DNA of 28,133 nucleotides from Chrysophaeum taylorii (taxonomy: Eukaryota > Sar > Pelagophyceae > Pelagomonadales > Pelagomonadaceae): assembly GCA_029834535.1 (NCBI GenBank), contig JAQMWT010000266.1, positions 1 to 28,133 of the forward strand, given 5' to 3'. The notes under the pieces were generated by a model. That model worked only from the letters and a program-made list of their open reading frames with translations. It made no database searches and was not told the DNA's origin. The position numbers were made by a program, and so were the translations under genes. Positions 1 through 24,819 of this stretch are shown here, piece by piece. How positions within the stretch are numbered: position 1 is the first letter of the stretch; every line of letters starts with the position of its first letter.

Positions 1-429
1 CAGTTACGTATTGCTGAATGGTGATGTTGTAAAGATTGGTAGCTCGTTGTTGCGCATCTCGAATGCGATGGTGCCCCTGGCATGGACTTTCTTATCGAAG
101 GGCGCATGCTTCTCATGGAGCTGTCTTGCCGTTAAGAGGTATTTGTTTTTCTTTAGTAGGAGATGATATATCCGCGGATGAAGTGTGAGAGAGGAAGACG
201 CGAGCTATTGAATCAATATGAAAAGGTAGAAGTTCGTGGTTAGAAGTAAGAGTATCACAACATGAGAGTTTTTATTGGAGATGTAGAACATTGTAATGGA
301 ACTGTGGTAATATTAAGGATGTATCTGTTGGGAATATATTTGTGAAGTAGGTTGACCTATAGTTTGGTTAGAGAAGCGTGATCAGGGTCAAACGATGGTG
401 ATAGCGTTAATTTACGCAAGTCATANNCA
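1..429 (-). pseudogene. Protease to integrase start, Copia copy 1
   Basis: On the minus strand around 180-240 the translation reads FHIDSIARVFLSHTSS. This matches the copy 2 segment with DSVA at the same place, a degenerate form of the retropepsin active-site D-S/T-G-A. Downstream (towards position 1) the sequence matches copy 2 up to just before the integrase zinc-binding region, which would lie outside the window. Both copies lack the glycine of the active-site triplet. No continuous reading frame remains, so this is a relic. Confidence 0.5.
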
Positions 430-2442
430 AGCTGACACATATGTTTATAAATTATATGATATGTTCCAGCTGGAATAGCATTTGCGATGATATCACAGCA
501 TAGGTCCGGGGACAAAGACAGAAGAAAATTGATTTGGTATTGAAGTTATTGGCGCGTGCCAATTCGCGAGTTGAGTAGTGTCGGATGCGATCGAGTCGTG
601 GATCGTACACGAGCATATTAGCAAATCCACGAATGGTAGGAGGAGGTGTATATAGAATGAACTTTGGCACCCATCTTCCTATTGCTTGATGTAATAAATC
701 CCAGATATCTGCTTTGGGACAAATGCATGTCACTTAAAGCAAACATTTTATCGACAAATTCGAGACGATTTTCCAGAGGGTAGAAGACAAAAGAATCGTG
801 AAATACAGGAGAAGTATAGGGCACCAGTGCTTGTACTAGACGACGCGTGTCTTGATTTTCATTATTATGATGGTATGCTTGGCAAAGCCAACGAAAACCC
901 GTAACAGGTTCGAGAGAAGCAGTCTTGTCAATTCCGGCATCATGTGTTAGGAAGATATAGGTTTCGCCAAATGCATTTATATGTGCCTGGTATTTAGAAG
1001 AGGTTTTCTTGAATTAGTCAAGAATCCCAGGCGAAAGTTAGAAATGCCTCCATTTCATCTTGACTGGGATGTTCGACTGTTTTATTAGAGTGCAGACGAA
1101 GGAACAGCATAGTTAAGGTTTCAAGCTCAGTCACAGTTAAGCGCACGGACCCTGTGCGACTGAAAATGTTGTAGGTTTTAGGTGTGGACACGAATGGTAT
1201 GTCAGGAAAGACCTTCGTCCAAGGTTCGTCGACTATTAACTTGCGACTGATGGAATTAGCGTGGTCTGCAATGTCCAGAAAGGAAGCGCGCAACGAGGAT
1301 CCATCTTTCTCTGGCTTGATAATCTCCACATAGATAGCATGGAAATCGGTCACATATATCCACCGTATAGTGCATCGTTGAGAAGATGAGATTAGCAACT
1401 CGTATATGGTCTTCATACGATGCGGAGTGTGGTGGTGTCATTTCCATGAAAAGAACGAGCGGCTTTAAAAGCTCAAGTACACTTAGAGCACTTTGGAGCA
1501 AGGAATCATCCATATCGCGCTCGGGTGGAAATGGATCTCCCATTGATTATGTTGCGATTTGTGCATGGTGATGTCAATTCCACTATATCGGTGTAATATC
1601 GTGCACGTTCAACGTCCGATGCTCGATGGAGATATGTCAGAAACTTAGGTAGGGATGGGGAAACTTCGATGGATTTACCAAAACGTCTTCGTAGCATGTG
1701 CGTGATATTGTCGTCGCTCTCAACAAGAACTTTAACGTTGATGTTGACTTGCAAGTCATTAGAAGCGCAAGCCAAGAATGCAGGAGTGGACATCCCCGAG
1801 CAAAGTAGAGTTACTGTAGGTGTTCGTGGGCTATGAGATGAAGTTACTGTATGAAGCAAACGTGTGGTAACCTTGCGTCATACGGTAGGTGGGAAATGCT
1901 TGCGTATGTAAGGCAGCTGCGAATGCATTGACTCCAGGATGGTTTTAAGCCATGGGACGTAAAATACGCGTTCCGTGAGGGTGGAATATAGTTTGAGCAT
2001 TTCGCGTTGTTCATTAAAAGCACATAGTCTGAACTGTAGCGGCCGAAGTTCCATTTTACGCGCTTTTGCTTGTTGCAGCGAATAAATTGGTAGAGTAGGC
2101 AACAGGTTGCTGAGTCTAAACAAAGTAATCTTGACATTATCATCACTTTTACTCTGGATAGATGATTGTCCTTTAAATTCAACTCCATACAGATGTATAC
2201 CAAGTTTAGCTTCTCCCCATTTAGTCATACTGATGATGTGCAGATCGGGATCGTTATGGTCGTTTTGCTTGGGTAGAAAAAGCGCAACGTCTAGCTTTAC
2301 ATATCCCACATTTGGATGCTTTGGGGGAGCGGGAATGACGGTCCTTATAATCATAGCATGCGTGATTCTCTGCGTATCCGTAGCAGTCTGGATAGCAGGC
2401 GACAAGGACTCGGGTAGCTTTACGATGTGGATAGGATCAGCA
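430..2442 (-). pseudogene. Gag-like region of Copia copy 1, broken
   Basis: A chain of minus-strand open segments (2442-1878, about 1859-1506, 1543-1256, 1416-1018, then about 980-620 and 733-452) gives proteins collinear with those of copy 2 at 19010-24200. At least three frame changes separate them. The conserved blocks, such as a segment beginning DPIHIVKLPESL and one containing SFLDIADHANSISRKLIVDE, resemble no domain I can name. They lie upstream of the protease and integrase, so Gag is the positional inference. The region is very long for a Copia Gag. A second unknown ORF upstream of pol is an alternative reading. Confidence 0.5.
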
Positions 2443-2459
2443 CAAGTGCAGGCCAGTAA

Positions 2460-2810
2460 GTTCACCTAGTCCCAATCTCTAACCCCAGCAAGTTCACCTG
2501 TTCCCGTTAAGTTCACCTAGTCCCAATCTCCAACCCCAGTAAGTTCACGTAAGCCCAATCTCTAACCCCAGTAAGTTCGGCGTAAACCCACACCCACTCA
2601 CCCCACTCTCCTTCGAGCTCGTCTCTCACCCCGCCAATCTAAGCTGCTTTGATCCGCACACGCCGCTTTGAGTTTACTCTAAAAGCCCAGTAAGTTCACT
2701 TGGTCCCAGTAAGTTCACCTGGTCACTAAGTCACCTAGTCCCAATCTCTAACCCCAGTAAGTTCACCTGGTTCCAGTGTCACCTGGTCCCAGTAAGTTAA
2801 CTATAGTGCG
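2460..2810. repeat. CCAGTAAGTTCACCTGGT minisatellite block of Helitron A
   Basis: An 18-bp unit CCAGTAAGTTCACCTGGT and variants ending CTAGT recur irregularly, interleaved with CCCAATCTCTAACCCC. A more unique block containing CTTCGAGCTCGTC and CCGCCAATCTAAGCTGCTT sits in the middle. The same arrangement lies next to the helicase 3' end in every Helitron copy in this window, so it is the element's 3' non-coding region. Confidence 0.8.
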
Positions 2811-2814
2811 CGTA

Positions 2815-3404
2815 GACGCCGGGGGGGGCTTATCGGTATTGCGCAGCACGTGTGGGTAGGGTGGAGTCGTCGACCCAGAAGAGATATCCTCGGGGTTGCC
2901 GATCGACAGAGAGCCACGTAGAGCTGGACGTGCAGAAGACGGGCTTGGGCAGGACGCCGACCTCGCGGGGCGTCTGGCCCTGGCTCTTGTGATCGTTTGG
3001 CGTCGGCGGGCCTTAAGGGATACAGGTTGGAGGAGCCTCGGTGACAACGACACGATCGATCATGTATCTGGTACCGTTGCAGTGGCCGTGCGACGGGTCG
3101 AGGTTGCGAAGACTTTGCTCGCGATCAAAGTCAGCATGCCGTTGGTTGTCAGGAGTTCAAAACTCGACTGTAAAGAGCGAGGCGTCGTCTTCCGACCCAA
3201 CCTAGTCGGCCGAAAAGAACTCCGACGCCTCATCTCCGGGAAAAAGGCGGCGGTCATGCGCGCGTTGTCAGCATCGACAACATCGTTTCGACGGGGCGTG
3301 AGAATGGCGCGCTGAAAGAGCCGCCGCGGGTCGTGGAAATAGTTTGCGAGGTCGCCGTAGACGGCTTGGAGGATCAATGCTCTGCCTGGCTCGCGGCCTA
3401 CATG
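2815..3404 (-). pseudogene. PIF1-like (Helitron) helicase C-terminal fragment, copy A
   Basis: The minus-strand peptide from 3377 reads ILQAVYGDLANYFHDP, followed by RAILTPRRNDVVDADN. This matches the conserved Helitron/PIF1 helicase stretch in which RAIL(T/A)P precedes a run like NDxVDxIN. Downstream, in other frames, come remnants of the CNGTR motif and of the end near QLYVALSR. The INKSQGQT segment is damaged here by a small deletion near 2990. Frames change several times. The role in the intact family would be the DNA helicase of rolling-circle transposition. This copy is dead. Confidence 0.7.
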
Positions 3405-4224
3405 ATCCTTACCCTAAATCGAGGGACAAACAACCTCGCCGCATCTACAGTGAGTGATCGCCACGCATTAGGCCGCCTCATGTGCCCTCACCGCCCTCAC
3501 CCCATGTCGCCTCGGGGAACCCCACCCAGGCCGCCCGATCCCAGCAGGACGTCACCCTTCGTCGCACATACGTCCGGCGGCAGCATGCGTACGACCCACG
3601 GGCGGGCCCGTCCTCTCGCCTGCTCCCACGCCTCGGCGATGACCCTGACTAGGTCCCGCGTACTTATCTCCGCCCGTCAGTACATCCTCATACCCCACAA
3701 ACCCACCCACATCCTTCATGCTCCCCACACACACACCCCTCTTAGCAGTCGACATTTAAAGACAAACAGACAGACGAACATCTGTCGATTAGTAGTAAGG
3801 ATCTGTCGATTAGTAGTAAGGACAAGTGCAGGCCAGTAAGTTCACCTAGTCCCAATCTCTAACCCCAGTAAGTTCACCTGGCCCCAGTAAGTTCACCTGG
3901 TCAGTAAGTTCACCTAGTCCCAATCTCTAATCCCAGTAAGTTCACCTGGTCAGTAAGTTCACCTAGTCCAAAACTCTAACCCCAGTAAGTTCGGCGTAAA
4001 CCCACTCGTGCTCACACCATTCTTTCGAGCTCGTCGCTCCTGCCCGCCAATCTAAGCTGCTTGATCCGCACGCGCCGCTAATCTTTGAGTTTACTCTAAA
4101 ACCCCCAGTAAGTTCACCTGGTCCCAGTAAGTTCACCCGGTCACCATATTCACCTAGTCCCAATCTCAAACCCAGTAAGTTCACCTGGTCCCAGCAAGTT
4201 CACCTACAGTGCGTGTAGACGCCG

Positions 4225-4845
4225 GAGGGGGCTTATCGGCATTGCGCAGCACGTGTGGAATAGGGTGGAGTCGTCGACTCGACGTCGTCGAAGAGCATAT
4301 CCTCGGGGTTGCCGATCGACAGAGAGCCACGTAGAGCTGGACGTGACAGAAGACGGGCTTTGAAGAGGACGCCGACCTCGCGGGGCGTCTGGCCCTGGCT
4401 CTTGTTGATCGTTTGGCGTAGGCGGGCCTTAAGGGATACAGGTTGGAGGAGCCTCGGTGACAACGACACGATCAATCATGTATCTGGTACCGTTGCAGTG
4501 GCCGTGCGACGGGTCGAGGTTGCGAAGACATTAAGCTCGCGATCAAAGTCAGCATGCCGTTGGTTGTCAGGGAGTTCAAAACTCGACTTTAAAGAGCGAG
4601 GCGTCGTCTTCCGACCCAACCTAGTCGGCCGAAAAGAACTCCGACGCCTCGTCTCCGGGAAAAAAGGCCGCGGTCATGCGCGCGTTGTCAGCATCGACAA
4701 CACCGTTTCGACGGGGCGTGAGAATGGCGCGCTGAAAGAGCCGCCGCGGGTCGTGGAAATAGTCTGCGAGGTCGCCGTAGACGGCTTAGAGGATCAATGT
4801 CTGGCTCGCGGCCTACCTGATCCTTACCCTAAATCGAGGGACAAA
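4225..4845 (-). pseudogene. PIF1-like (Helitron) helicase C-terminal fragment, copy B
   Basis: The minus-strand frame ending near 4233 contains QTINKSQGQTPREVGVL, the near-invariant Helitron/PIF1 motif in which INKSQGQT is followed by a VGV strand. The upstream RAILTPRRND region is present in another frame. Shifts in runs of A and G break the reading frame. Copies A, B, C2, D and E share most of this about 600-bp block at roughly 90-95% identity by eye. Only the last 200 or so residues of the helicase are represented. Confidence 0.75.
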
Positions 4846-4941
4846 CAAACTGCCCGTCAGGCACATCCCTCATACCCCACAAACCCACCCACATCCTACA
4901 TGCTCCCCACACACACCCCCCTCTTAGCAGTCGATATTTAA

Positions 4942-5028
4942 AGACAAACAAACAAACAAACAAACACAGACTGACAGACTGACAGACTGACTGACAGACT
5001 GACAGACTGACTGACTGACTGACTGACT

Positions 5029-5059
<31 letters not shown>

Positions 5060-5224
5060 AGACTGACAGACTGACAGACTGACAGACTGACAGACTGACA
5101 GACTGACTGACAGACTGACAGACTGACAGACTGACAGACTGACAGACTGACAGACTGACAGACTGACAGACTGACAGACTGACAGACTGACTGACTGACT
5201 GACTGACTGACTGACTGACTGACT

Positions 5225-5255
<31 letters not shown>

Positions 5256-5280
5256 AGACTGACTGACTGACTGACTGACT

Positions 5281-5348
<68 letters not shown>

Positions 5349-5349
5349 G
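4942..5349. repeat. AAAC then GACT/GACA tetranucleotide microsatellite
   Basis: About 25 bp of AAAC units is followed by roughly 380 bp made almost entirely of GACT and GACA tetramers in alternating blocks, with one GACG. It lies just inside the 5' terminus of Helitron B. The other Helitron copies carry much shorter GACA/AAAC runs at the same place (about 3750-3780, 17853-17887, 19676-19706, 21739-21762), so the array is part of the element and expanded in this copy. Confidence 0.95.
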
Positions 5350-5366
5350 TCGATTAGTAGTTAGGA

Positions 5367-7605
5367 CAGCGGCAGTTCGGGCGAACGGGAAAGCCAACCC
5401 GGAGAATTGTTCGATGCCCTCTTCCGTCATCCGCGCGGGCCCGAAACCGCCACAGCAATCACAGACGCCCTCTTCCAAGCGTTCGCGGACCCGCGCCGAC
5501 AAAACCCCACGGATGCGGACGGCGACGCGCCCGACCGAAACGGCCATGACGCCGACGGCAGCACGCCCGAGAACGATATCAACCCCGATTCAACGTCGAG
5601 GGCGACGCCGCACTCTCCCCAAGGGGGTACCCGCCGCGGACTCGGCCGCGATGTCGGCAGCGGAATCAGCGAGTCGCCGCCAGTCGAGGAACCCGCCCAG
5701 GAACCGAACACGCCGGAACCGGAAGGATCGGAACAAAAAGCCGAAACCGACAGGGAACCCCCGCGCGAAGCGCGGGAAGAGAGAAGCCTCGAGGAAGTTA
5801 ACGGATCGAAAGCGTCCCGCACGCAGTTCAAAAGCGCCAGATTAAGACCTCCGCGCCGAGTGTCGGGGATGTGGACGACAGTCAAGCGGCTCTGGAACAA
5901 GAAGAGTCCAGAGCGAACCGACCCCCCGGCACGAAACCGAAACAAGACCCCATACGGTGGCGGGGTCACCCCTCTCCAAAACGAAGAGAACGCAATCGAT
6001 AAAGAGCCCGAGCCACCCGAAGAACGAAAAGAGCCTCGGAAAGACGAAGAACGAAGATTTCCCGACTTCCCGGCTCGAGAGCGCGAAGAAAGAGGCCGTC
6101 AGTTGCAGCGGAGAATCCAAGAGCTACCCGCCGATCCGCGAACGAGCCGACAGAGCTGGTGGTCGAGAGCCCGCCGATTCTTCGCGGGACGCGCGCACGT
6201 ATCGATGCCGATGGCAGGGACGGAGGACGAAGGCATGTGCATGCACTCCTCTTTCGCCTCCATCAACGCCGAAACGATCGACAGAGACCTGCGCGTCCTT
6301 AACTGCTTGGAAGCCGGTAGCCTGACGTTCATGCCCATCCATATATTCAATAAGCCGGGCGACTCATCGTATGCCACGGTGATCGGTGTGGACGGAATGG
6401 CCGACGTCACCTACATCTGTCGCGACCTCGCACGCCTACTGAGAAAGCGAGGGATGTTGCTGGATAGCGGCGAGCTGCCTTTCGAGCGAACGCTCTTCGG
6501 ATCGGGAAAGAACACGACCTCGATTTCGGAGTGGATCGCCCTGCGAGTATCCGTTTCGGACGAAATGGCCGTACCGGTAGTCGCAATCGTGGCAGACACC
6601 AACAAACAGTTTCTGCTGGGAGCCCGCGACATTCGAGCCTTGGGCGCTGTCGTGGATTATCCCCGAGACCGAATTTCCTTCTCGCGAACCCAAACAGTCT
6701 TCCAGATGATGAAGCTCCCGTACGCTGGGGAAATCGTTCGGTCACCCGCCATTCGTTATCGGGCAGCGTACGAAAGACACCCTGTCGTAGCGCCGATTTA
6801 CAGTTTTCGAGGGCAAGCGAGGACGCAGAGTCGGAGTCAAGGTGGCAAGAGAGCTCTGCCACCACAGCTCACTGAGAAGGATCTCCTCTCGCCGCCTCCT
6901 CAGCGAGCTTCGGCCGCCGTAACCTTGGCCGAGGACCCGTCTATGCCGAGGAACGACCCGAAAACGTCGGCGCCCGAGATCCGAGCGTTCGCAACCGGCT
7001 CCCGGCGCATCGACCCCGGTCGAACCCACAACATCCCGGTCAAGCTGAGTCAAGCGCAGAAGCCCGGAGAAGCCTTCGTCGCCACGGCGCCAAGCGTGGA
7101 GCACCTCGGCATCGTAGCCGGAACCTGCTCGACGTGTGACCGCTCCGACCCGACCGCGGCCGCAGTGGCCGTGTCGTCGAAGGGTGACACGCCGATATCG
7201 ATAATCCCAGGTCGTGAGCTCGCACGGGGGGAAATCGTCAACTGCCAAGAAGAAGTTCAGGTGACAACCCCATTGCCAAGCGCCGACCCTGGAAACGCGC
7301 ACGAGAACGAGCCCGACGGCACGGCACCCTTCACGGTCCCGGTCACCAGTTACCCAACTCCAGATCCCGGAGAACCAGACGGCCAAGCATTTCGAACGTC
7401 TTCGATCGAGCCGCGTCTGCAAGCCCCGAAGGCGCAGTCGCAAGAGCCGCTGAAATCCCGGGCCGCCGAACAAGCGATCCTCGACAAACACCAGGCACTC
7501 TCCTGGATCCCTCCGAGCGTGACTCCCGTCGTGATGTTCTTCGGCGGGATGGGCGGGTACACAGGGCATCTACCGGAGCAACGAATGGTTCGGAGCCGCG
7601 TATAA
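5367..7605 (+). pseudogene. Gag-like and retropepsin part of Gypsy polyprotein
   Basis: One open frame runs from the Helitron junction (in-frame stop at 5362, inside the Helitron) to a stop at 7605. No natural start is left. The first ~250 codons are charged and low in complexity (rich in E, R, P), as in a Gag tail. The segment around 6391-6414 reads VDGMADVTYI and stands where the retropepsin D-S/T-G-A active site belongs. About 73 codons later FLLGARDIRALGAVVDY matches the C-terminal retropepsin signature. A linker with IDPGRTHNIPV and ISIIPGRELARGEIV follows, like the beta-rich region often found between Gypsy protease and RT. The last in-frame residues (from 7531) begin the methyltransferase, and the frame then breaks at about 7567. 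Confidence 0.75.
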
Positions 7606-8370
7606 AGTCGAGCTCGTCATTGACGCATCCGACACCGCCAAAGAAGTTCATGAGAGAAACTTCCCAGGGGTACCTGTCGTCCAGCACACCCTCGGCGGTC
7701 GGTACGACATGGTCTTATCTCTGGTCAAAGGTTACCTGCATGAAAGCCTAAGGCCAACCGCACTTTTCGTCGGCACGCCACCATGCGCAGACTCCGCCTG
7801 GTGCAACCTTACGGCCCGCGACGCCCGGAGAGGGGTCTCTGCGGCCAACTGGACTATCAAGCTTCTCCAGCTCACCGGAGTCGGACGCTGGATCATCGCG
7901 CAGGAGCTCTCCATCCGATCGAAAATCACGCTGCGGTAAGGTTTCGGGACCGTCGTCGATCTATGGACGACGACGACGGACCTCATGAGTACCCGTCGGC
8001 GCACGATCATCACGAGTTGGCCTCGTCAGCTCATCCGACGTCCCAAAACGTGCGGCACCATCCAGGATACCTTCGCCGCCAAACTCGGATTCGACCCTTC
8101 GCAGCCTCTCATCCAGCGCAACAACTTGGATGCACGCGAGATGCCACGGCACCGATATACACCATCACGCGGAACGGAGTGCGAGCAGGACCCGCGCCTT
8201 CGGACACCAAAGCGCTCAAACTAGAGATGCTCGCGGAGGCTCTCACGATGCCGCGCGATCTCGCATGGGGTAAACTCACAGTCACGGACCGAATGAAGCA
8301 TCTAGCAGCCAGGATACCCCCGTCCGCCATGGCGTACATAGCCCTCGACGCCCACAACGCGTTGCCGCCC
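7531..8370 (+). pseudogene. Cytosine-C5 DNA methyltransferase domain in retroelement Pol
   Basis: Motifs of C5 methyltransferases appear in order. FFGGMGGYTG (7540-7566) matches the SAM-binding motif I. VELVID then HERNFPGVPV (about 7607-7680) matches motifs II-III. VGTPPCADS (7769-7795) is motif IV, with the catalytic Cys codon at 7784. QEL near 7900 lies where ENV (motif VI) is expected, keeping only the Glu. STRRRTIIT (7988-8014) matches motif VIII. PIYTITRNG (8152-8178) and RIPPSAMAYI (about 8311-8340) match the conserved C-terminal part (motifs IX-X). The frame shifts at about 7567 and again at about 8130-8142, and a TAA interrupts at 7937. The intact enzyme would methylate cytosine C5 in DNA using SAM. 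About 280 residues and a tiny target-recognition region make it small. Confidence 0.8.
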
Positions 8371-9333
8371 ACGCTCCGTAATATCGGAATCGCGCGCCCG
8401 AACGTAGTCACACCAACCGACGAACCTTCCGAAACATACATCATCGAGCGCGCCCCCTCCGACCACACCCGCACCGGAGTCACCGCACCCGAGCCTCGGA
8501 GCGCCCTCGTGAACGCTTCGACTCGCGCAATCCAGTGGGTGCCCAACCGCGACCTCCAGGACAAAGCGCAATGGCAACCGTCGGATCTTCCCTTGACCCC
8601 TCCGAAGCCCGCCGCATCGGGGACGATGCACTCATCTTCCCAAGGGGGTGTACCCGCGCGAGCAAAAACGACGCGACCTCGAAAGGCGAACCGAGGAGGG
8701 ACGAAAAACCAACCAAGAAACCAACAGGCGACAAGACCATCTCGCCCTTCCGGTTCAAGTATGAGGAACGGTTTGACGTGCCATGGAAAAACGCACCAAG
8801 GGACAAAGACGGCTCCCCGCCACCACAACATCCCCGCCGTCTGAAAGGGAACGAGGCCATGATCGTCAAGAACCCCACAAAGGAAGAAGTGGACAAGGTA
8901 GTCGACGAGCTAGGCATCCCGACCAACACGCACTTGGACGAGGATGCCAAGCTCATGCTGGCGCACTGCTTTCGATACTCTTGGACCTTCTTCGATCCCA
9001 TTATGAGGCCCGGAGACCCTCGACCGGTGTCCCTCCGATTCAAAGACACGAACCAAAAGCCCATCGAGACGTCGCCGTACCGCCGCTCCAGCCAAGATCG
9101 AATATCTTCGCAAGCAGATTGCCGAATGGCGCCGAGATGGACTCGTAAGACCCGCCAACTACCCTCGGGAGTTCCCTATCTTGATGCTTCCGAAGAAAGG
9201 GGCAAAGCTCGGGACATCTAACGCTCTCCGCGCGGCCGTCGACTTACGTCCGCTCAACGACCAGTTGGTTGAAGACAGAGGGCCGAACGCGCCGCAAGAG
9301 GACGCCATAGCGCTCCGGGCCGGCCGAAAGTAC
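8371..9333 (+). pseudogene. Linker and N-terminal reverse transcriptase of Gypsy Pol
   Basis: After a basic, proline-rich linker the frame moves (about 8590-8640) to one containing HLDEDAKLMLAHCFRYSW and VSLRFKDTNQKPIETSPYRR. This is the usual lead-in to Gypsy RT, where an acidic loop and a Pro-Ile precede YR. A further shift near 9093 leads to IEYLRKQIAEWRRDGLVRPA, LPKKG and RAAVDLRPLN, which matches the RT start in which a DxRxLN motif closes the first block. EDAIALRAGRKY follows as the next strand, and then the sequence jumps to integrase. The catalytic YxDD block, RNase H and the integrase core are absent. Confidence 0.8.
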
Positions 9334-9880
9334 AGGACGCCGATACCATACCACGCCCAAGCGAACCCCGCGGAGCAAGTCAACTGAGCAGCATCACCGA
9401 CTGGCCGGCCTTCGTCCGGTACGTGTCGTTTTGCTACAACCGAGAGTTCATCCCCGGTACGCAAATCTCCCCGTTCATGTTGCGCCTGAACCGGCAGCCG
9501 ATGTTGCCCACGGACTACACCTTGTTGGTTCAGCCCGACCCCGTTCTGCCGCGACCCCGATCCGACGCGTTGTTGGAAGTCAAGCAGAACTTCCAGTACT
9601 ACTCGAAAGTAGTTTCCGAAGCACATGATCATGCCAAAAAGACGCAGAAACTCGTTTACGACGCCGAGCACGCTGATGTCGAATACAATGTCAATTCGCG
9701 CGTAGTACCGCACATTCCGCAGTCCCAAAACAAGTTGCGACCGGAGTGGCGAGGCCCCTTCCTCATCACTGAGCGTCTGTCGCCCGTTTCGTACAAGATC
9801 CGATCGGTTTACGGAGCCGCCGAAGAGCGAATCGTGCCTGTCCAACAGATCACCCCAGTGTCGATGCCTCCCACGCTCGA
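9334..9880 (+). pseudogene. Integrase C-terminal part of Gypsy Pol
   Basis: YHAQANPAEQVN (about 9349-9384) matches the Gypsy integrase signature just after the catalytic Glu. After a stop and frame change, DWPAFVRYVSFCYNREF and ISPFMLRLNRQPMLP (9399-9510) match the usual W...YN...SPF block. KLRPEWRGPFLI (about 9732-9767) is the conserved strand of the C-terminal DNA-binding fold. The DDE core upstream is lost through the internal deletion near 9334. The frame from 9387 to 10118 is open. Confidence 0.85.
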
Positions 9881-10504
9881 TGCCACGATCCGTCGTCCGA
9901 GGCCCGGATTCCGCGACGAGTACGAGCGCGGCAAGTTCGTCATCTTCCGCATCCCGTCGGCCCGAGACCCCGATTGGCGCAAGAAGCTCTACGTCGCCGA
10001 GGTTTTCGAGGATTATGATGATGTTCAGGACCGAGTCGCCCTCCACATTTACTCCGATCCGGGCCCGCGCGACGACCCATCGTATTTCGACCGACCTCAC
10101 CGCTCGAAGGTAGCACGCTGAGCCCGGAATTCAAGACGGCACTCGGTCGCAGCTTCACCCGCACCGAGAAATTAACACCTCAGTGCACCCCTTGCGTTAC
10201 CGACTTCGCCCCGGACGAGATCGACGTCCTGGTTCCCCGGTTCAAGCTCCAGGGGAAATCAGTTCCTCCTCCGATCGTCCAGCGCGTCAAAGATATTCTC
10301 GCGCATCGCGCGCGCCAAGAACAAGAACAACTCCAAGCTCAACAACGCGCTCATCAGACGCGCACTCAAGTCCCGTCCACCGACGGTCCGCGCCCAAACT
10401 CTCGTCAGTCCCACAACCGCCGTCGCGGAGGACAGCTCCTATCAAAGCAGGGGAGTCCTGTGGCGGCAACCTGTGGTGGAAACTCAGCTCACCCGCCCCT
10501 CTTC
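9881..10504 (+). pseudogene. Unknown C-terminal domain of Gypsy Pol
   Basis: Past the integrase fold the frame continues with KFVIFRIPSARDPDW, LYVAEVFEDYD and DRVALHIYSDPG, a beta-rich module of about 70 residues. It then changes frame around 10112-10118. The second frame carries DEIDVLVPRFKLQGKSVP, PPIVQRVKDILAHRA and a Gln-rich tail, up to 10504. I do not recognise the module. Its position is where many Gypsy integrases carry a chromodomain, so a chromatin-reading role is possible but unproven. The last 33 bases of the frame run into the 5' LTR of the small element and so are not native. Confidence 0.55.
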
Positions 10505-10804
10505 GCCTAACCGTCGGTCACAACGTGACCGCTCAACTGTCCTGAACCACGGGTGGTTCCACCACACGTCCAACCAAGCGCTCACACTCCGCTCACGCCA
10601 TGCTGTCGAACATTCAACTGAGGGTAATTTCAAGGAAACAGCAAGAAAGCAATACAAATGCCCGGTACATAGGGTTCAGTGGAAGCGCAGGTGAGGGTGT
10701 CAAGATGACACCCCCCCCCATAATTGCAAGGTCAGTACCAGGGCAACAACCAGGGTAAGTCATGTGGCAGGCACGCAAGTGGGGGAATGGGCGTTACTGC
10801 CGCA
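10472..10804 (+). repeat. 5' LTR of small LTR element
   Basis: It starts TGTGGTGGAAACTCAG and ends GTTACTGCCGCA. It differs from the partner LTR at a C/T site (CAACTGAGG versus CAATTGAGG) and near the 3' end (CCGCA versus CCACA). Both contain a run of nine C. Confidence 0.85.
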
Positions 10805-11579
10805 TAAGCCCCCTACTTGAGATGAAGTCGTCCTCGACTTCAAAGGGTGACGAAGGTCACGCTCACGAATGGTACGATAAGCTCGGTGAGCTACATCAGC
10901 AGGAACTTTGTCTGTGGAGGCCGAAGTTACTGACGAGGACATCAATTTCATTCAGGCGAAAGTCAGGCACAAGGTTCACAGCCGTCCATATTCGTTAGTA
11001 GGCGAGTGAATCTACCTCCATCGTGGTCTTTTTCTTCTGGTCTTAATCGTCGTTCTTCAGCAGAAGCGGTCGCAAAACAAACGTCAAACTCCTCTAGTTT
11101 CCATGGTGCGGTTTCTCTCGGATATCAACGGCTATCTCGAACACCAAAACTTCTCGTCGAGCAGCAAAATTTGCCGGCTACTGTTCGACTCGCGCGGTTG
11201 ACCGGTGCGACGGACTTACACGGCACAAGCCTTTTGCCTCGCCAGAGACTATGGTTGGTCTCAGAGACTATGGTTGGTCTCTCCGGCCTTCTTTCTGCCT
11301 CTTTTCGGAGACTGTGGGTGGTCTCCTGGGCTCGCTTTTTGTCTTGAGACCCACAAAAATCCGCTCAACGTCCGAGTAGTAATCCGTCGACCGTTTATTC
11401 CGATTCACGTAAAGAGCCTCAGTCGCTCTTCCGATCCTTCGAAACCGCCTACCAACACGTCGGCTCTGCACTCGCTCAAAGCCTGAACACCGATTCGCCG
11501 CCGACCGCGGGAGACTGACAGTCCGGGATTCGCGTAACAACAACCCCGGAAACTGTCAGTTCCCGTTTCTGAGACCACC
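10805..11579. other. Internal region of small LTR element
   Basis: No protein family is recognisable. The region contains three repeats of a GAGACTATGGTTGGTCTC-like unit at about 11245-11325. A strong inverted repeat lies at 11515-11559, with arms CTGACAGTCCGGG and CCCCGGAAACTGTCAG, 20 bp before the 3' LTR. Short open frames such as 10762-10998 have no family resemblance and are probably chance. Confidence 0.5.
11515..11559. repeat. Inverted repeat near 3' LTR
   Basis: CTGACAGTCCGGGATT at 11515-11530 pairs with AACCCCGGAAACTGTCAG at 11542-11559, with a small bulge and a loop of about 11 nt. It could form a stable RNA or DNA hairpin. Its role (packaging, termination or none) is unknown. Confidence 0.7.
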
Positions 11580-11912
11580 TGTGGTGGAAACTCAGCTCAC
11601 CCGCCCCTCTTCGCCTAACCGTCGGTCACAACGTGACCGCTCAACTGTCCTGAACCACGGGTGGTTCCACCACACGTCCAACCAAGCGCTCACACTCCGC
11701 TCACGCCATGCTGTCGAACATTCAATTGAGGGTAATTTCAAGGAAACAGCAAGAAAGCAATACAAATGCCCGGTACATAGGGTTCAGTGGAAGCGCAGGT
11801 GAGGGTGTCAAGATGACACCCCCCCCCATAATTGCAAGGTCAGTACCAGGGCAACAACCAGGGTAAGTCATGTGGCAGGCACGCAAGTGGGGGAATGGGC
11901 GTTACTGCCACA
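11580..11912 (+). repeat. 3' LTR of small LTR element
   Basis: This is the partner of 10472-10804 at a constant offset of 1108 bp. It ends CCACA and is followed by AACCC, which supplies the second AACC of the target duplication. Confidence 0.85.
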
Positions 11913-12333
11913 AACCCTTACACCGCCATCCTTACCCCTAGTTCTATCGAGTTCTCTACCCCACTTCCTGTTTACTGGACTCTACTTCAACCCCTGACGC
12001 ACGTATTTGCAACGCCGCCAGGCGTCTACTCCTTTCAAATCGACTAATCTCGACCATAAATCATTTCACGAGTCTTCGGATTGAAGCTCGTGGGCAGTTT
12101 GAAGGTTGATCGACAGGAAGGAAGCGCTCCTCAACCCGCTCGGCACCCTCGAGACGTCGAGGGCACAGTCGAAGCAGGGGATGAAGTCAGTGCGCATAAT
12201 CCTTTCCTGCCGCAGGTTTTATTAGTGGTGGTACGCCCGTAAAGAACGGGTCTTTAAGAGGTCGACTGGTAAGAGAGGGGGGGGGGGGGGTTGAACGGGG
12301 TCTTATTTAGGAGCGCGCTTAGGGAAGTAGGGA
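11913..12333 (+). promoter_or_regulatory. Upstream region of the ataxin-2-like gene
   Basis: About 420 bp lie between the LTR element and the start codon. No gene is recognisable. A run of 14 G is at 12277-12290. No convincing TATA box or other core promoter motif stands out at a fixed distance. The region must hold the 5' UTR and probably the promoter. That is inferred from position only, and the first part may be remaining Gypsy sequence. Confidence 0.4.
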
Positions 12334-14443
12334 ATGGACTTCGAAGCTCGCAGAGAACGTTACCTTTACGTCTTGAATGCTTTCGTCGGCCAACGCGTAG
12401 TGATAGAAACATTGAGGGGTAAGTTATTGGAAGGAATCTTGCACACGACAACTCCTTTCAAAAGCATGGCGCATCACGTCGTTGTGACCCACATGTCCAC
12501 AAGCCTTGCAGACCACGGGTTCGACGGAAATCCCGTAGTGGGTTGCACAGTGGTCTTCGATGCTGCAAACCTCAAGAGCTTAAGTATAAATTCCTTAGCG
12601 AGGAAGGAAATCACAAAATCATCAGCCTTGCGTGAGTGTTTTCAGCATTTACACTATATGTGCACACATGAAGCCAGTAATTCCAGGCACAGACGATGAC
12701 ATCCGTAGAGCGTTGAAGAGCTACTCTCAAGATTCTTTTGAGCTTAAGGCTGTGGATGGGGCGTGGCTTGCAAATCCCTCATGCGGTAAATGATGTCTGC
12801 AATGTGCAATCATGTGATAGACTCATGTCGTGCTGTCCACGTTCTTCTCACTGGACCTGGCTTGCGCAGACAGACAGGTAGATAAGCGCCGAGATGTAGC
12901 TCGAGAGTTTTATTCGAATCATCTTTCGACAGAATGGGACCAATTTATGGCCAATAAGCACATCTTCAACCTTGCTGCGAAGTTTGATGAGTGTCTATAC
13001 ACAACTCCGCTTGTCATAGAGGATCTTACAGACGAAGACAAAGCTGCTGCAGCACGACTCGCGGCGGATATTGTGTCTTCGAGAACATCAAACATGCATG
13101 TGGCTGAAGAACGTGGGCATGTACCTCAGCATGAGCATGTGGATGAAGAGGAAAAATACTCGGGGGTCCGTCGTGAAGCCCATTCAGGGCTCGCCTGCAA
13201 AGCTTTTTCTGTAGCCACTGCTGTATCCACCTCGTTGGCGAGTGAGGTTGATATTCAATCTCAATCTCACGCTGGCTTCATGTCCCATATGCCACCTGGC
13301 CAGCCAGATACTACCACGGTGCCCAGTGCGCCCGATCACGAGAATTTTTGTTTGGGCCAGTATGGTCCAAGTCATCTTGGAAGTGACATGGAACCTTGCA
13401 CCTCCGTTGAACACCTTGAACCGTGCACCTCTATTGAACACCATGAAATTGTTCAGACCCAGGTGCAGACCCTAGAGCGGTCTAGTGGTGAAGACACAGG
13501 CGATGTAGTTGATGGATCAAACCCACCAAGAGTGGTTAACCTGCCTAGTATTGCGCGAATGCGTGAGATGGAAATGACGGAAAAGTATCGTTTTAAGAGT
13601 TCATTGGAAGTTGATCCCAGTCCTTCCGCAACTCCGATCGACTCACAGCCCCACAGGCGTTTAGTTGAGCAAGCATCAGGTACACGTAGGACGAGTGAAT
13701 TACTTTCTTCTGGGCAAGTTAGTCGAAACAGCTGTAAGGAAAGCGAAGTTCACCAATGTTCTTCACCGTCAGATACGGCAGTTACCAAAGAATTTAAACT
13801 CAACGTTCAAGCCGCGGAATGGACGCCAAGCACGCTTGTTAGTTCTCTTCCTCCAGCTCCGACATTCCATCATTCCCAGGTATTCCTACCGACACATGTT
13901 CAGCCTGCAGCCTCTAGGCCGATGGGTATGGAGTATCAGTACCCGCCAGACACTGCCTGCGTGATTCCGCAGCACCCTCGCCAAATAGCCATCCATGATG
14001 TGTGTTCAACCCCTGCATTTAATGAGCTTGGGCCGCAGGCCCCGTTCTGTGTGGATGATGTGGTTAGCTATGCTACGCACAACTTCAAATCATCCCAGCA
14101 TTTACTTCCATCACCACAGTTGCCACGTGAGGGCTTGCAGAAGAACCCAGCACAGCAGCGCCAGAAGAGACATAATGCCCCACGAATTGCTGCATACAAT
14201 TTCCACGAAGGTAAGCGAAGCCACGGCTACAGACGCAATAAGCACAGACCTAGTTCGAGTCGTACATTCACTGACACTGCTGGGTGCAGCAAGGATGAAC
14301 GCCAACACAGTCGTTGTGATGACTCTGAAATTCCAGTATGCCAGAGTATTATGAGCGCGAATCCCAGTGCAAATCAGAGTTCTAGTCATTTCCACTGTGT
14401 ACCTGGTGCACACGCGAGTTCACAGATCGCACCCTGTCCGTAG
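12334..14443 (+). CDS. Ataxin-2 family protein (Sm-like, LsmAD, PAM2)
   Basis: The proposed spliced CDS is 12334-12631, 12687-12785 and 12870-14443, 656 residues. An in-frame TAG at 12328-12330 fixes the start. Residues ~5-90 form an Sm-like fold (ERYLYVLNAFVGQRVVI, GILHTTTPF). Residues ~100-230 match LsmAD: TDDDIRRAL, WDQFMANKHIF, FDECLYTTPL, AEERGH and DEEEKYSGVRRE. Residues ~439-453 contain FKLNVQAAEWTPS, a PAM2 motif that binds the MLLE domain of poly(A)-binding protein. The rest is low complexity with a basic C-terminus. Family members (human ataxin-2, yeast Pbp1, plant CID proteins) act in mRNA stability, translation and stress granules in the cytoplasm. No frame defect is seen, so the gene is probably functional. 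Splice joins are inferred but keep frame and restore the family alignment. Confidence 0.88.
12632..12686 (+). other. Intron 1 of the ataxin-2-like gene (55 nt)
   Basis: The donor is C|GTGAGTG at 12632 and the acceptor is TTCCAG at 12681-12686. Removing it joins phase-1 ends and links the Sm-like domain to RTDDDIRRAL, which matches the usual start of the LsmAD segment. Without splicing the frame stops at 12699. An alternative CAG acceptor lies a few bases upstream. Confidence 0.75.
12786..12869 (+). other. Intron 2 of the ataxin-2-like gene (84 nt)
   Basis: The donor is G|GTAAATG at 12786 and the acceptor is TTGCGCAG at 12862-12869. Splicing keeps phase 1 and leads into DRQVDKRRDVAREF and the LsmAD core. 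Unspliced, exon 2 meets a stop directly after the donor. Confidence 0.75.
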
Positions 14444-15974: not shown

Positions 15975-16044
15975 GGATGAACTACTTTTATGACCAATTG
16001 GCTTTTTTCTTTTTGAAAAGTTTGCAACAACCGTATAAGTTTGA

Positions 16045-16880
16045 CAAGTGCAGGCCAGTAAGTTCACCTAGCCCCAATCTCTAACCCCAGTAAGTACACC
16101 TGGTCCCAGTAAGTTTCATATAAGTTCACCTGGTCAGCAAGTTCACCTAGCTCTAACCAAGTTCACCTAGCTCTAACCAACTCCTTTGAGCTCGTCGCTC
16201 TCGCCTCCGCCAATCTAAGCTGCTTTGGTCCGCACGCGCCGCCAACCTTTGAGTTTACTCTAAAAACCCTTTACTCTGAAAACCCCAGCATGTTCACCTG
16301 GCCCCAGTTTCACCTGGTCACTCAGTCCACCTAGTCCCAATCTCAAACCCCAGTAAGTTCACGTGGTCCCAGTAAGTTCACCTATAGTGCGCGTGTAGAC
16401 GCCGGGAGGGGGCTTATCGGTATTGCGCAGCACGTGTGGGGTCGGGTGGAGTCGTCGACCCAGATGAGTATATCCTCGGGGATGCCGATCGACAGAGAGC
16501 CACGTAGAGCTGGACGTGGCAGAAGACGGGCTTGGGAAAGAGGACGCCGACCTCGCGGGGCGTCTGGCCCTGGCTCTTGTTGATCGTTTGGCGTAGGCGG
16601 GCCTTAAGGGATACAGGTTCGAGGAGCCTCGGTGACACGACGCGATCGATGATGTATCCGGTGCCGATCGATGATGTATCCGGTGCCGTTGCAGAGGCCG
16701 TGCGACGGGTCGAGGTTGCGAAGACTTTAACCTCGCGATCAAAGTCAGCATGCCGTTGGTTGTCAGGGAGTTGAAAACTCGACTATAAAGAGCGAGGCGT
16801 CGTCTTCCGACCCAGCCTAGTCAGCCGAAAAGAACTCCGACGCCTCGTCTCCGGGAAAAAAAGGCCGCGGTCATGCGCGC
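16045..16880 (-). mobile_element. Helitron fragment C1 (truncated)
   Basis: The 3' end GCACTTG lies at 16045, followed (on the minus strand) by T. The minisatellite block (to about 16385) and a helicase C-terminal fragment (about 16390-16860, minus) are present, with INKSQGQT and QLYVAL-type peptides. The element stops at CATGCGCGC (16880), about 300 bp short of the usual 5' end, where the next Helitron begins. A 22-bp stretch around 16645-16690 is duplicated relative to other copies. Confidence 0.75.
16390..16860 (-). pseudogene. Helitron helicase C-terminal fragment, copy C1
   Basis: The minus-strand frame ending near 16414 reads QTINKSQGQTPREVGVLFPKPVF and then QLYVALCRSA, both typical of the last helicase motifs in Helitron RepHel and PIF1 proteins. 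The preceding RAILTP region is missing through truncation. Frames change at least twice. Confidence 0.75.
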
Positions 16881-17851
16881 CAGTAAGTTCATCTACTCCC
16901 AATCTCCAACCCCAGTAAGTTCACCTGGTCCCGTTACGTTCACCTGGTCAGTAAGTTCACCTAGTCCCAATCTCTAACCCCAGTAAGTTCGGCGTAAACC
17001 CACTCGTGCTCACACCCACTCACCCCACTCTCCTTCGAGCTCGTCGCTCTCACCTCCGCCAATCTAAGCTGCTTTTATCCGTACACGCCGCTAGCCTTTG
17101 CGTTCACTCTAAAAACCCCAGTAAGTTCACTTGGTTCCAGTAAGTTCACCTGGTCACTAAGTTCACCTAGTCCCAATCTCAAACCCCAGTAAGTTCACGT
17201 GGTCCCAGTAAGTTCACCTATAGTGCGCGTGTAGACGCCGGGAGGGGGCTTATCGGTATTGCGCAGCACGTGTGGGGTAGGGTGGAGTCGTCGACCCAGA
17301 TGAGTATATCCTCGGGGATGCCGATCGACAGAGAGCCACGTAGAGCTGGACGTGGCAGAAGACGGGCTTCGCCAAGAGGACGCCGACCTCGCGGGGCGTC
17401 TGGCCCTGGCTCTTGTTGATCGTTTGGCGTCGGCGGGCCTTAAGGGATACAGGTTGGAGGAGCCTCGGTGACACGACACGATCGATCATGTATCTGGTAC
17501 CGTTGCAGTGGCCGTGCGACGGGTCGAGGTTGCGAAGACATTAAGCTCGCGATCAAAGTCAGCATGCCGTTGGTTGTCAGGGAGTTGAAATCTCTACTGT
17601 AAAGAGCGAGGCGTCGTCTTCCGACCCAGCCTAGTCAGCCGAAAAGAACTCCGACGCCTCGTCTCCGGGAAAAAAAGGCCGCGGTCATGCGCGCGTTGTC
17701 AGCATCGACAACATCGTTTCGACGGGGCGTGAGAATGGCGCGCTGAAAGAGCCGCCGCGGGTCGTGGAAATAGTCTGCGAGGTCGCCGTGGACGGCTTGG
17801 AGGATCAATGCCTGCCTCGCGGGCCTACCTGATCCTTACCCTAAATCGAGG

Positions 17852-17883
<32 letters not shown>

Positions 17884-17908
17884 AACATCTGTCGATTAGT
17901 AGTTAAGA
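16881..17908 (-). mobile_element. Helitron fragment C2
   Basis: In minus orientation it starts TCTTAACTACTAATCGACAG at 17908, preceded by A, and runs through a short GACA/AAAC tract, the helicase fragment (17840-17225) and the minisatellite 3' region. The last ~10 bases of the 3' end are absent where it joins C1 at 16880/16881. Its 5' end abuts the truncated Gag-like frame of Copia copy 2. Confidence 0.75.
17225..17845 (-). pseudogene. Helitron helicase C-terminal fragment, copy C2
   Basis: The frame from 17489 (minus) carries RVVSPRLLQPVSLKARRRQT, then INKSQGQT, VGVLLAKPVF and QLYVALCRSA. The upstream part contains the RAILTP and PGDEAS blocks in other frames, as in the sister copies. Indels break the frame. 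Confidence 0.75.
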
Positions 17909-19480: not shown

Positions 19481-19656
19481 GCTATGATTATAAGAACTGT
19501 CATTCCCGCTCTCCCAAAGCATCCAAATGTGGGATGTGTAAAGCTAGACGTTGCGCTTTTCCTACCCAAGCAAAACGACCATAACGATCCCGATCTGCAC
19601 ATCATCAGTATGACTCAATGGGGAGAAGATAAACTTGGTATACATGTTTATGGAGT

Positions 19657-20698
19657 CCTAACTACTAATCGACAGATGTTTGTCTGTTTGTTTGTTTGTT
19701 TGTCTGTCCCTCGATTTAGGGTAAGGATCAGGTAGGCCCGCGAGCCAGACAGTGATCCTCCAAGCCGTCTACGGCGACCTCGCAGACTGTTTCCACGACC
19801 CGCGGCGGCTCTTTCAGCGCGCCATTCTCACGCCCCGTCGAAACGATGTTGTCGACGCTGACAACGCGCGCATGACCGCGGCCTTTTTTTCCCGGAGACG
19901 AGGCGTCGGAGTTCTTTTCGGCCGACTAGGTTGGGTCGGAAGACGACGCCTCGCTCTTTACAGTAGAGTTTTCAACAACCAACGGCATGCTGACTTTGAT
20001 CGCGAGCTTAAAGTCTTCGCAACCTCGAACCGTCGCACGGCCACTGCAACGGTACCAGATACATGATCGATCGTGTCGTTGTCACCGAGGCTCCTCCAAC
20101 CTGTATCCCTTAAGGCCCGCCGACGCCAAACGATCACCAAGAGCCAGGGCCAGACGCCCCGCGAGGTCGGCGTCCTCTTGGCGAAGCCCGTCTTCTGCCA
20201 CGTCCAGCTCTACGTGGCTCTCTGTCGATCGGCAACCCCGAGGATATCCTCTTCTGGGTCGACGACTCCACCCTACCCCACGCGTGCTGCGCAATACCGA
20301 TAAGCCCCCCCCCGGCGTCTACACGCGCATTATAGGTTAACTTACTGGGACCAGGTGAACTTACTGGAACCAGGTGAACTTACTGGGGTTAGAGATTGGG
20401 ATTAGGTGAACTTAGTGACCAGGTGAACTTACTGAGACCAAGTGTGAACTTACTGGGGCTTTTAGAGTAAACTCGAAGTTTAGCGGCGTGTGCGGATCAA
20501 AGCAGCTTAGATTGGCGGGGGTGAGAGCGACGAGCTCGAAGGAGAGTGGGGTGAGTGGGTGCGGGTTTACGCGGAACTAAAGAGATTGGGTTTACGCCGA
20601 ATTTACTGGGGTTAGAGATTGGGAATAGGTGAACTTAACGGGGTGAAAATGCTGGGGTTAGAGATTGGGACTAGGTGAACTTACTGGCCTGCACTTGT
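19657..20698 (+). mobile_element. Helitron fragment D
   Basis: This is the only Helitron here with the helicase on the plus strand. Sequence GGAGT precedes CCTAACTACTAATCGACAG, and GGCCTGCACTTGT is followed by TGAATTT. Copia copy 1 has the uninterrupted target GGAGTTGAATTT, so nothing was duplicated or lost. Because of a shared T the borders can be read as TCC...CTTG before T, or as CC...TTGT between T and T. A short TTTG/GTCT tract, the helicase fragment and the minisatellite 3' region follow in that order. Confidence 0.85.
19735..20335 (+). pseudogene. Helitron helicase C-terminal fragment, copy D
   Basis: LQAVYGDLADCFHDPRRL then RAILTPRRNDVVDADN begins at 19755. CNGTRYMIDRV appears at about 20046-20078 in another frame. 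TITKSQGQTPREVGVLLAKP and QLYVALCRSA (20206-20235) end it. This order (RAILTP, CNGTR, KSQGQT, QLYVALSR) is that of the C-terminal third of Helitron RepHel helicases. At least three frame changes occur. The ATP-binding motifs I and II and the Rep nuclease are absent. Confidence 0.8.
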
Positions 20699-21084
20699 TG
20701 AATTTAAAGGACAACAAGTGCAGGCCAGTAAGTTCACCTAGTCCCAATCTCTAACCCCAGCAAGTTCACCTGTTCCTGTTGAGTTCACCTAGTCCCAATC
20801 TCTAACCCCAGTAGATTCGGCGTAAACCCAATCTCTAACCCCAGTAAGTTCGGCGTAAACCCGCACCCACTCACCCCACTCTCCTTCGAGCTCGTCGCTC
20901 TCACCCCCGCCAATCTAAGCTGCTTTGATCCGCACGCGCCGCCAACCTTTGAGTTTACTCTAAAAACCCTTTACTCTAAAAACCCCAGTATGTTCACCTG
21001 GCCCCAGTTTCACCTGGTCACTCAGTTCACCTAGTCCCAATCTCAAACCCCAGCAAGGTCACCTGGTCCCAGTAAGTTCACCTA

Positions 21085-21735
21085 CAGTGCGCGTGTAGAC
21101 GCCGGGAGGGGGCTTATCGGTATTGCGCAGCACGTGTGGGGTAGGGTGGAGTCGTCGACCCAGATGAGTATATCCTCGGGGATGCCGATCGACAGAGAGC
21201 CACGTAGAGCTGGACGTGGCAGAAGACGGGCTTGGGAAAGAGGACGCCGACCTCGCGGGGCGTCTGGCCCTGGCTCTTGTTGATCGTTTGGCGTAGGTGG
21301 GCCTTAAGCGATACAGGTTGGAGGAGCCTCGGTGACAACGACACGATCGATCATGTATCTGGTACCGTTGCAGTGGCCGTGCGACGGTTCGAGGTTGCGA
21401 AGACTTTAAGCTCGCGATCAAAGTCAGCATGCCGTTGGTTGTCAGGGAGTTGAAAACTCTACTGTAAAGAGCGAGGCGTCGTCTTCCGACCCAGCCTAGT
21501 CAGCCGAAAAGAACTCCGACGCCTCGACTCCGGGAAAAAAAGGCCGCGGTCATGCGCGCGTTGTCAGCATCGACAACATCGTTTCGACGGGGCGTGAGAA
21601 TGGCGCGCTGAAAGAGCCGCCGCGGGTCGTGGAAATAGTCTGCGAGGTCGCCGTAGACGGCTTGGAGGATCAATGTGTGGCTCGCGGGCCTACCTGATCC
21701 TTACTCTCGCGCCTACCTGATCCTTACCCTAAATA
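21085..21735 (-). pseudogene. Helitron helicase C-terminal fragment, copy E
   Basis: The minus frame ending near 21114 reads QTINKSQGQTPREVGVLFPK and QLYVALCRSA. The upstream RAILTP block lies at about 21600 in a different frame. Sequence is very close to C1 and C2. It is broken by A/G-run indels around 21535. Confidence 0.75.
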
Positions 21736-24200: not shown

Positions 24201-24280
24201 CTAAAAACTATAGGTCAACCCTCTTCACAAATATATTCCCAACAGATACATCCTTATTATTACACCAGAGTTCCATTACA

Positions 24281-24806: not shown

Positions 24807-24819
24807 TTAAGTGTCTCAT

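Follow-up and report, generated by a model that had tools for sequence, protein, structure and literature searches.

Why a broken retrotransposon in the alga Chrysophaeum taylorii should hold what looks like a DNA-modifying enzyme is the question raised by the 28,133-nucleotide stretch analysed here (contig JAQMWT010000266.1, hereafter the window), in which positions 5367-10460 are a decayed copy of a Ty3/Gypsy element. A reading made from the letters of this DNA alone, without database searches (hereafter the sequence-only reading), had proposed that the element carries its own cytosine-C5 DNA methyltransferase (MTase) between the protease and the reverse transcriptase (RT). Relatives of the element elsewhere in the genome hold a C5-MTase-like domain in that position, fused in frame with RT, with the catalytic Cys and Glu retained and under purifying selection. 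We lean towards the reading that this is a Ty3/Gypsy family whose C5-cytosine DNA methyltransferase is packaged to methylate the element's own complementary DNA (cDNA) before integration.

The motifs named in the sequence-only reading all lie on the forward strand in the claimed order: FLLGARDIRALGAVVDY (6610-6660), then FFGGMGG (7537-7557), GTPPC (7772-7786), STRRRTIIT (7988-8014) and RIPPSAMAYI (8311-8340) of the putative MTase, and, 3' of these, RAAVDLRPLN (9229-9258) followed by YHAQANPAEQVN (9349-9384). Window 6193-8640 shares 40-44% identity (best group of pieces E 3e-140) with P0002, a polyprotein from a relative with a long open frame (locus L038), which has no match in the window 5' of 6193; the part upstream of that point is possibly gag-derived. 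Judged from its sequence, the window copy is dead and cannot be active as it stands, with disrupted frames and an Ala in place of the motif VI Glu. A frameshift near 7560 separates motif I from motif IV, a stop codon follows at 7937-7939, the frame changes again near 8100-8130, and motif VI reads IIAQE, as against IIEQE in 8/8 other copies read from the closest family (G1, below). Pol has lost its middle: a deletion takes out most of the RT, RNase H and integrase core, so that the N-terminal piece of RT (ending near 9345) runs directly into the end of the integrase (from about 9314-9349). The window alone would not prove an MTase domain, because at E<=1 the six Gypsy pieces of it compared with Pfam match two integrase C-terminal families only (Integrase_p58_C at E 2.7e-5, SH3_Tf2-1 at E 3.3e-4), each below its cut-off, and no MTase; the protease region has no Pfam match, and the proof comes from relatives.

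Such relatives are numerous. The 134-amino-acid (aa) MTase piece of the window matches at least 149 other places in the 70.8-Mb genome (best 150 of 643 candidates scored, window included; weakest listed E 4.9e-35). Among the matches listed, 24 places including the window (23 besides it) form family G1, at 73-100% identity, and 126 form family G2, at 46-50% identity to the window piece. Match positions and scores are near-identical between contigs C25 and C521 and between C10 and C297, which suggests duplicated or haplotypic contigs; because some contigs look duplicated, loci are fewer than matches and copy counts are somewhat inflated. That the element is Ty3/Gypsy, as first read, is borne out by the Pfam families found over cut-off 3' of the MTase in G2 copies: RVT_1, RT_RNaseH and Integrase_H2C2 in L038, RVT_1 and RT_RNaseH_2 in L039, and RVT_1, RT_RNaseH, Integrase_H2C2 and rve in L041. 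The protease 5' of the MTase was called by eye in these relatives.

The arrangement is shared widely within G2. At least 68 of the 126 G2 MTase matches are followed on the same strand by an RT match at a distance of 1.2-1.9 kb, in a pairing that took in 74 of 150 RT matches. Furthermore, in at least 12 G2 copies a single unbroken frame spans MTase and RT, as read from the frame length that the two matches share (up to 3067 aa, with another of 3063 aa). Sister elements without the MTase would have spoken against the sequence-only reading. Of the RT copies for which no MTase was listed, six were examined: the domain is at least partly present in four (at only 41% identity in one), and in the other two the expected place holds no sequence of the element, so that no sister among the six lacks only the MTase. 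Self-comparison of the 9.9-kb loci gave no flanking long terminal repeats (LTRs) in L038 or L041. In L039, a 122-bp direct repeat (86% identity) stands at both ends of the 9.9-kb stretch around the G2 copy (60-181 and 9780-9896), and might be part of its LTRs.

Direct evidence for the C5-MTase identity of the Gypsy domain is moderate, judged by sequence comparison, and the bridge through two other proteins is strong. In G2, the MTase family PF00145 (cut-off 22 bits) scores 23.5 bits in L039, 22.4 in L041 and 19.2 in L038, and 3/12 domains in our Gypsy MTase alignment (A1) match it at E<=1. The family hit that the sequence-only reading implied is thus above the cut-off in L039 and L041, falls short of it in L038, and is absent from the window pieces. 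The bridging proteins, P0001 (2034 aa) and P0005 (456 aa), come from ENA and carry PF00145 together with PPC, ENV, PQ(R/K)RxR and GDAVPPP motifs. By hhalign, the Gypsy profile matches the MTases of P0005/P0001 with a probability of 99.2% (E 8.7e-20, 225 columns) and a canonical set (two bacterial MTases, host DNMT2 and host DNMT5) at 83% (E 9e-6, 77 columns), and the P0001/P0005 profile matches that same set at 84% (E 7.4e-6). These alignments tie the Gypsy domain firmly to the MTase of a retroelement-like protein and less firmly to cellular MTases, and together with the selection described below they uphold the claim of a C5-MTase-like domain between protease and RT. A coincidence of motifs or an assembly artefact, with no real methyltransferase present, would fit the window pieces without an MTase match and the mere 77 columns of the direct alignment to canonical MTases, but we consider it exceedingly improbable given the 149 or more other genomic matches, the ordered motifs, the frames of 3063 and 3067 aa holding MTase and RT, and the 99.2% match to MTases from another source.

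P0001 and P0005 are possibly a further class of retroelement with a captured MTase. By eye, both have a GIY-YIG-like stretch 5' of the MTase and P0001 also has an RT-like YADD stretch after it; Pfam at E<=0.1 gives the DNA methyltransferase (DNMT) alone. Their DNMT domain is the closest to the Gypsy one, and an IPVVQHTLGG-type motif is common to both, whereas an LTR element is not recognisable in them and their motif VI is ENV rather than EQE. P0005 matches at least 93 places in the genome (best 93 of 437 candidates), 11 of which overlap Gypsy MTases (L050-L057, L038, L039 and L041). Its profile matches in the PDB are DNMT1 in 13/15 rows (those at E 0.03-0.18), and weak pieces of it align with the DNMT1 chain 9ped. 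Among the candidates sharing most words, P0001 was the sole match in a protein search with the P0002 region and P0005 the sole match in one with alignment A2. A tblastn search with P0005 gave nothing in phage records, and scans with two short patterns each found no relatives of alignments A2, A4 and A5 in viral contigs, nor of A2 in genome contigs.

The Gypsy MTase domain is retained under purifying selection. Over the first 230 codons of G1 (8 of the 23 other copies), the ratio of nonsynonymous to synonymous substitution (dN/dS) has a median of 0.156 (range 0.075-0.322; 28/28 pairs below 0.5), and over 310 codons in five copies a median of 0.227 (range 0.145-0.488; 10/10 pairs at or below 0.488), though the pairs are not independent. 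Three G2 copies gave 0.055-0.161, two of the pairs having a dS close to 2. Neutral drift simulated on one G1 stretch yielded 0.79 (5-95% 0.54-1.27). The frequency of broken copies (the window, the tails of L054 and L055, and 3/15 copies of the Copia family C1 with in-frame stops) might suggest a functionless passenger that inserted once into an ancestral element and has been inherited since, but this is contradicted by dN/dS values far below the neutral simulation; the domain has also been retained in both G1 and G2 despite only 46-48% identity between them, and we regard a passenger as very unlikely. The proposal that the element could methylate DNA finds no support in the dead window copy; relatives keep the domain under selection with its catalytic residues.

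Those residues are consistently present. The Pro-Cys of motif IV occurs in 8/8 G1 copies read (PPC in seven, APC in one), in 3/3 G2 copies and, as PPC, in the window, and the catalytic Cys (motif IV) and Glu (motif VI) are both retained in 8/8 G1 and 3/3 G2 copies, as well as in 8/8 and 4/4 domains read from two Copia families discussed below (C1 and C2), that is, in 23/23 over four families. Motifs I, VIII and X were placed by eye, in order around the target-recognition region, by alignment with P0001 (motif X GDAVPPPF). Contrary to the sequence-only reading, the enzyme is not unusually compact: in longer G1 frames, the stretch from motif I to the X-like motif covers about 280 residues. In motif VI the Glu is kept and the Asn-Val of ENV replaced, giving EQE in 8/8 G1 copies and EQE, ERE or EQG in G2. 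These replacements, together with EMT in C2 and a degenerate motif I in C1 and C2, could mean that catalysis has been lost or weakened and that the C5-MTase fold instead binds DNA or RNA, dimerises or tethers the pre-integration complex. Such a non-catalytic role is unlikely in view of the Cys and Glu kept in all 23 domains read and of the Glu lost in the dead window copy.

Alternatively, the MTase may act on element RNA rather than DNA, in packaging, in the priming of reverse transcription or in RNA stability. RNA-acting enzymes with the C5-MTase fold exist (DNMT2). The A1 profile has three PDB matches at E<=10, none of them a DNMT3 chain; two are MTase chains, both DNMT2-type, but at E 0.61-0.67. 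An RNA substrate has also been raised for SymbioLINE-Dnmt by de Mendoza et al. (2018, PMC5890265). Against this stand the weakness of the PDB matches and the de novo CG methylation of DNA reported for a published retroelement DNMT in the same paper (PMC5890265), and we find an RNA substrate quite unlikely.

If the Gypsy enzyme does methylate DNA, the MTase would enter the virus-like particle along with RT and would act on new double-stranded cDNA ahead of integration, as proposed for SymbioDIRS-Dnmt3 (PMC5890265). The methylated incoming copy might then resemble ordinary host DNA, or be guided to, or tolerated in, methylated chromatin. Selection on the relatives' MTase suggests that these elements use the very mark by which cells normally silence them, and because hosts silence retroelements by cytosine methylation, elements that carry an MTase would invert the usual arms race. 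Several observations weigh against the main reading: at E<=1, 9/12 A1 domains do not match PF00145 (the G1 copy shown among them), and the best PDB match of the A1 profile reaches only E 0.61. MTase activity is also not assured, because motif VI in the G1 copies read is EQE rather than ENV and motif IV lacks the usual Gln. AlphaFold2 models were uninformative, with few alignment rows and a predicted local distance difference test (pLDDT) score of 46.8 for the window MTase fragment and 34.9 for the C2 domain. Finally, the observed/expected CpG ratio is 0.92-1.32 in the element pieces measured, and because CpG is not depleted there, these pieces bear no footprint of long CpG methylation.

The MTase trait is not confined to Gypsy elements. 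A PF00145 scan of the genome gave at least 124 matches (123 of 474 candidates scored), and 28/28 loci from L003 to L030 have a match in the MTase region of C1, a Ty1/Copia family. Two C1 loci hold PF00145 and the Copia RT family RVT_2 in one frame (L034, DNA_methylase 32.1 and RVT_2 133.2 bits; L035, 29.9 and 97.9 bits), in the order protease (by eye), MTase, integrase (a weak rve match in L034) and RT. Its MTase has PCQ and ENV motifs with a degenerate motif I; the C1 profile matches canonical C5-MTases by hhalign at 9.95% (E 0.003), and 7/7 of its PDB matches are C5-MTases (E 0.03-0.2). In 12 of 15 chosen C1 copies, the other three having been dropped for in-frame stops, the median dN/dS is 0.172 (range 0.086-0.681; 64/66 pairs below 0.5).

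A second, Copia-like family, C2, lies in the window itself (22110-24880 on the forward strand and 16-2166 on the reverse) and in at least 136 other places at 77-98% identity (best 137 of 989 candidates). A protein search with the region of P0004, a Copia polyprotein, found no match among 4245 candidates. Read by eye, the C2 domain has LLCSGM, TSPC, EMT (in motif VI) and QARERW motifs in order, with a degenerate motif I, and a stop codon directly 5' of it, retained in the four copies read, is probably an open reading frame boundary. PF00145 is the only Pfam family it matches (E 0.3, in 1/6 members), its profile matches canonical C5-MTases at 15.9% (E 0.0016), and the single PDB match is a ribosomal protein (E 1.1), with no MTase. 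Four copies gave dN/dS of 0.05-0.08 in five pairs (dS about 1-2) and 0.42 in one close pair. That this domain is a C5-MTase is, on sequence evidence, probable and not proven. At least one and probably two further LTR lineages in this genome carry MTase domains of their own, and the trait seems favoured in this host.

The Gypsy, C1 and C2 domains have no detectable similarity to one another (profile comparison, probability 0.1-0.8%), which fits separate captures, as the sequence-only reading had suggested for the Gypsy enzyme. A tree of 18 MTase sequences, with no Dnmt3 among them, recovers the family groups and leaves the order between groups unresolved; because long branches dominate it, separate capture is not proven. 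Host DNMTs appear few by comparison. An exon-by-exon search, in which other host DNMTs may have been missed, gave among the matches listed a DNMT2 (L042, E 3.9e-39 to 1g55), a DNMT with an SNF2 domain (L031) that matches 7r76 at E 1.6e-251, and further matches without family assignment on contigs C260 and C57. The 7r76 chain, labelled Rad8, is presumably a DNMT5. We tentatively entertain a wider reading, which may or may not prove correct: that three LTR lineages (Ty3/Gypsy, Ty1/Copia C1 and Copia-like C2) each gained a C5-MTase upstream of RT or integrase and spread it to hundreds of copies, far exceeding the number of host DNMT genes identified (a DNMT2, a DNMT5 and one or two without assignment); that the Gypsy MTase is part of a lineage confined to retroelements, which a GIY-YIG/RT element of other source shares, so that MTases would pass between retroelement classes; and that self-methylation would be a repeated solution to survival in this host.

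Capture of C5-MTases by retroelements has precedents in dinoflagellates and charophytes (PMC5890265), groups that the sequence-only reading also named. That paper describes KnitGypsy-Dnmt3, a Ty3/Gypsy element of the charophyte Klebsormidium nitens with a C5 DNMT of the Dnmt3 family in Pol, key residues retained and purifying selection on the DNMT (Ka/Ks < 0.2). A Gypsy element with a DNMT is thus already known from a charophyte, and it resembles the C. taylorii element in type, in having the enzyme within the polyprotein, in selection and in residues kept. The two differ in host, C. taylorii belonging to another algal lineage, and in enzyme, the C. taylorii domain having EQE in motif VI and no DNMT3 chain among its PDB matches, a distinction drawn by description only. 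Symbiodinium, again according to that paper, has hundreds of retroelement DNMT domains in one genome and in several element classes (SymbioDIRS-Dnmt3 and SymbioLINE-Dnmt), with de novo CG methylation reported for the former; C. taylorii is similar in having many such domains in several retroelement classes of one algal genome, but its elements are LTR Gypsy and Copia rather than DIRS and LINE. Another paper (PMC12344493) mentions briefly, without sequence detail, that members of DNMT3 occur in LTR elements of the Copia type and in DIRS elements, and the Copia association of C1 and C2 may be likened to this. The titles, abstract openings and partly listed results of a literature search held no LTR elements with a DNMT from an ochrophyte or haptophyte; nor did these parts of the literature contain a case in this host group, an enzyme of EQE type that is not recognisable as Dnmt3, the trait in several LTR lineages together, or the kinship with P0001/P0005. 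To the captures published for Symbiodinium and charophytes, our data add a further algal lineage, several LTR families, many copies and strong purifying selection. Function would be testable by comparison, since sister elements with EQE, ENV and EMT in motif VI occur in one cell against a small set of host DNMTs.

Table 1. Parts of the Gypsy remnant and of the Copia-like C2 copies in the window
Feature	Position	Strand	Remarks
5' part of Gypsy remnant	5365-6190	+	Charged low-complexity frame; simple repeat near 5' end; open frame 5365-7605
Protease and linker, retropepsin-like FLLGARDIRALGAVVDY	6193-7506	+	40% identity to P0002 residues 900-1372; protease called by eye
C5-cytosine methyltransferase domain (putative), broken copy	7507-8345	+	Motifs I, II, IV, VI (Glu to Ala), VIII, X-like
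Linker from MTase to RT	8413-9089	+	36-54% identity to second frames of L041 and L038
N-terminal piece of Ty3/Gypsy RT, remainder deleted	9088-9345	+	68.6% identity to L038 second frame residues 165-250
Integrase C-terminal part (YHAQANPAEQVN onward, SH3-like C-terminal domain)	9314-10121	+	46-74% identity to L041 third frame 581-653
C2 C5-MTase-like domain, Copia-like element	22403-23467	+	In-frame stop 22613-22615; motifs LLCSGM, ELTSPC, FMEMTPP, YQARERW by eye
C2 element, integrase region	24488-24880	+	tblastn with Copia polyprotein P0004, 25%, E 1.9e-4
C2 element, second broken copy including MTase-like domain	16-2166	-	Motif I to IV 1506-1877; 91-92% identical to 22110-24561

Both ends of the Gypsy remnant adjoin other repeats. 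On its 5' side lies a tandem array of 49 copies of the 8-bp unit ACAGACTG (4966-5349). On its 3' side are two direct repeats of 336 bp, 99.4% identical (10469-10804 and 11577-11912). They were weighed as the 3' LTR of the Gypsy element and discarded, since the repeat also forms pairs, spaced by about 1.1-2.6 kb, at several other sites; they are probably a short non-autonomous LTR element adjoining the remnant.

As to the host, window 12331-14443 holds a gene with an LsmAD domain (ataxin-2-like; E 6.7e-19, frame 12821-14440). Elsewhere in the assembly, no phycobilisome gene was found in a search of the genome, the plastid contig C697 carries an rbcL read as red-type with rbcS adjoining, and three separate places hold parts of the mitochondrial cox1; these features point to a probable ochrophyte or haptophyte. 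In the window, a repeat about 1 kb long recurs at roughly 80-92% identity (2442-3433, 3819-4850, 16036-17908 and 19656-21707), and a pair of these forms a long inverted repeat at 19718-21707.

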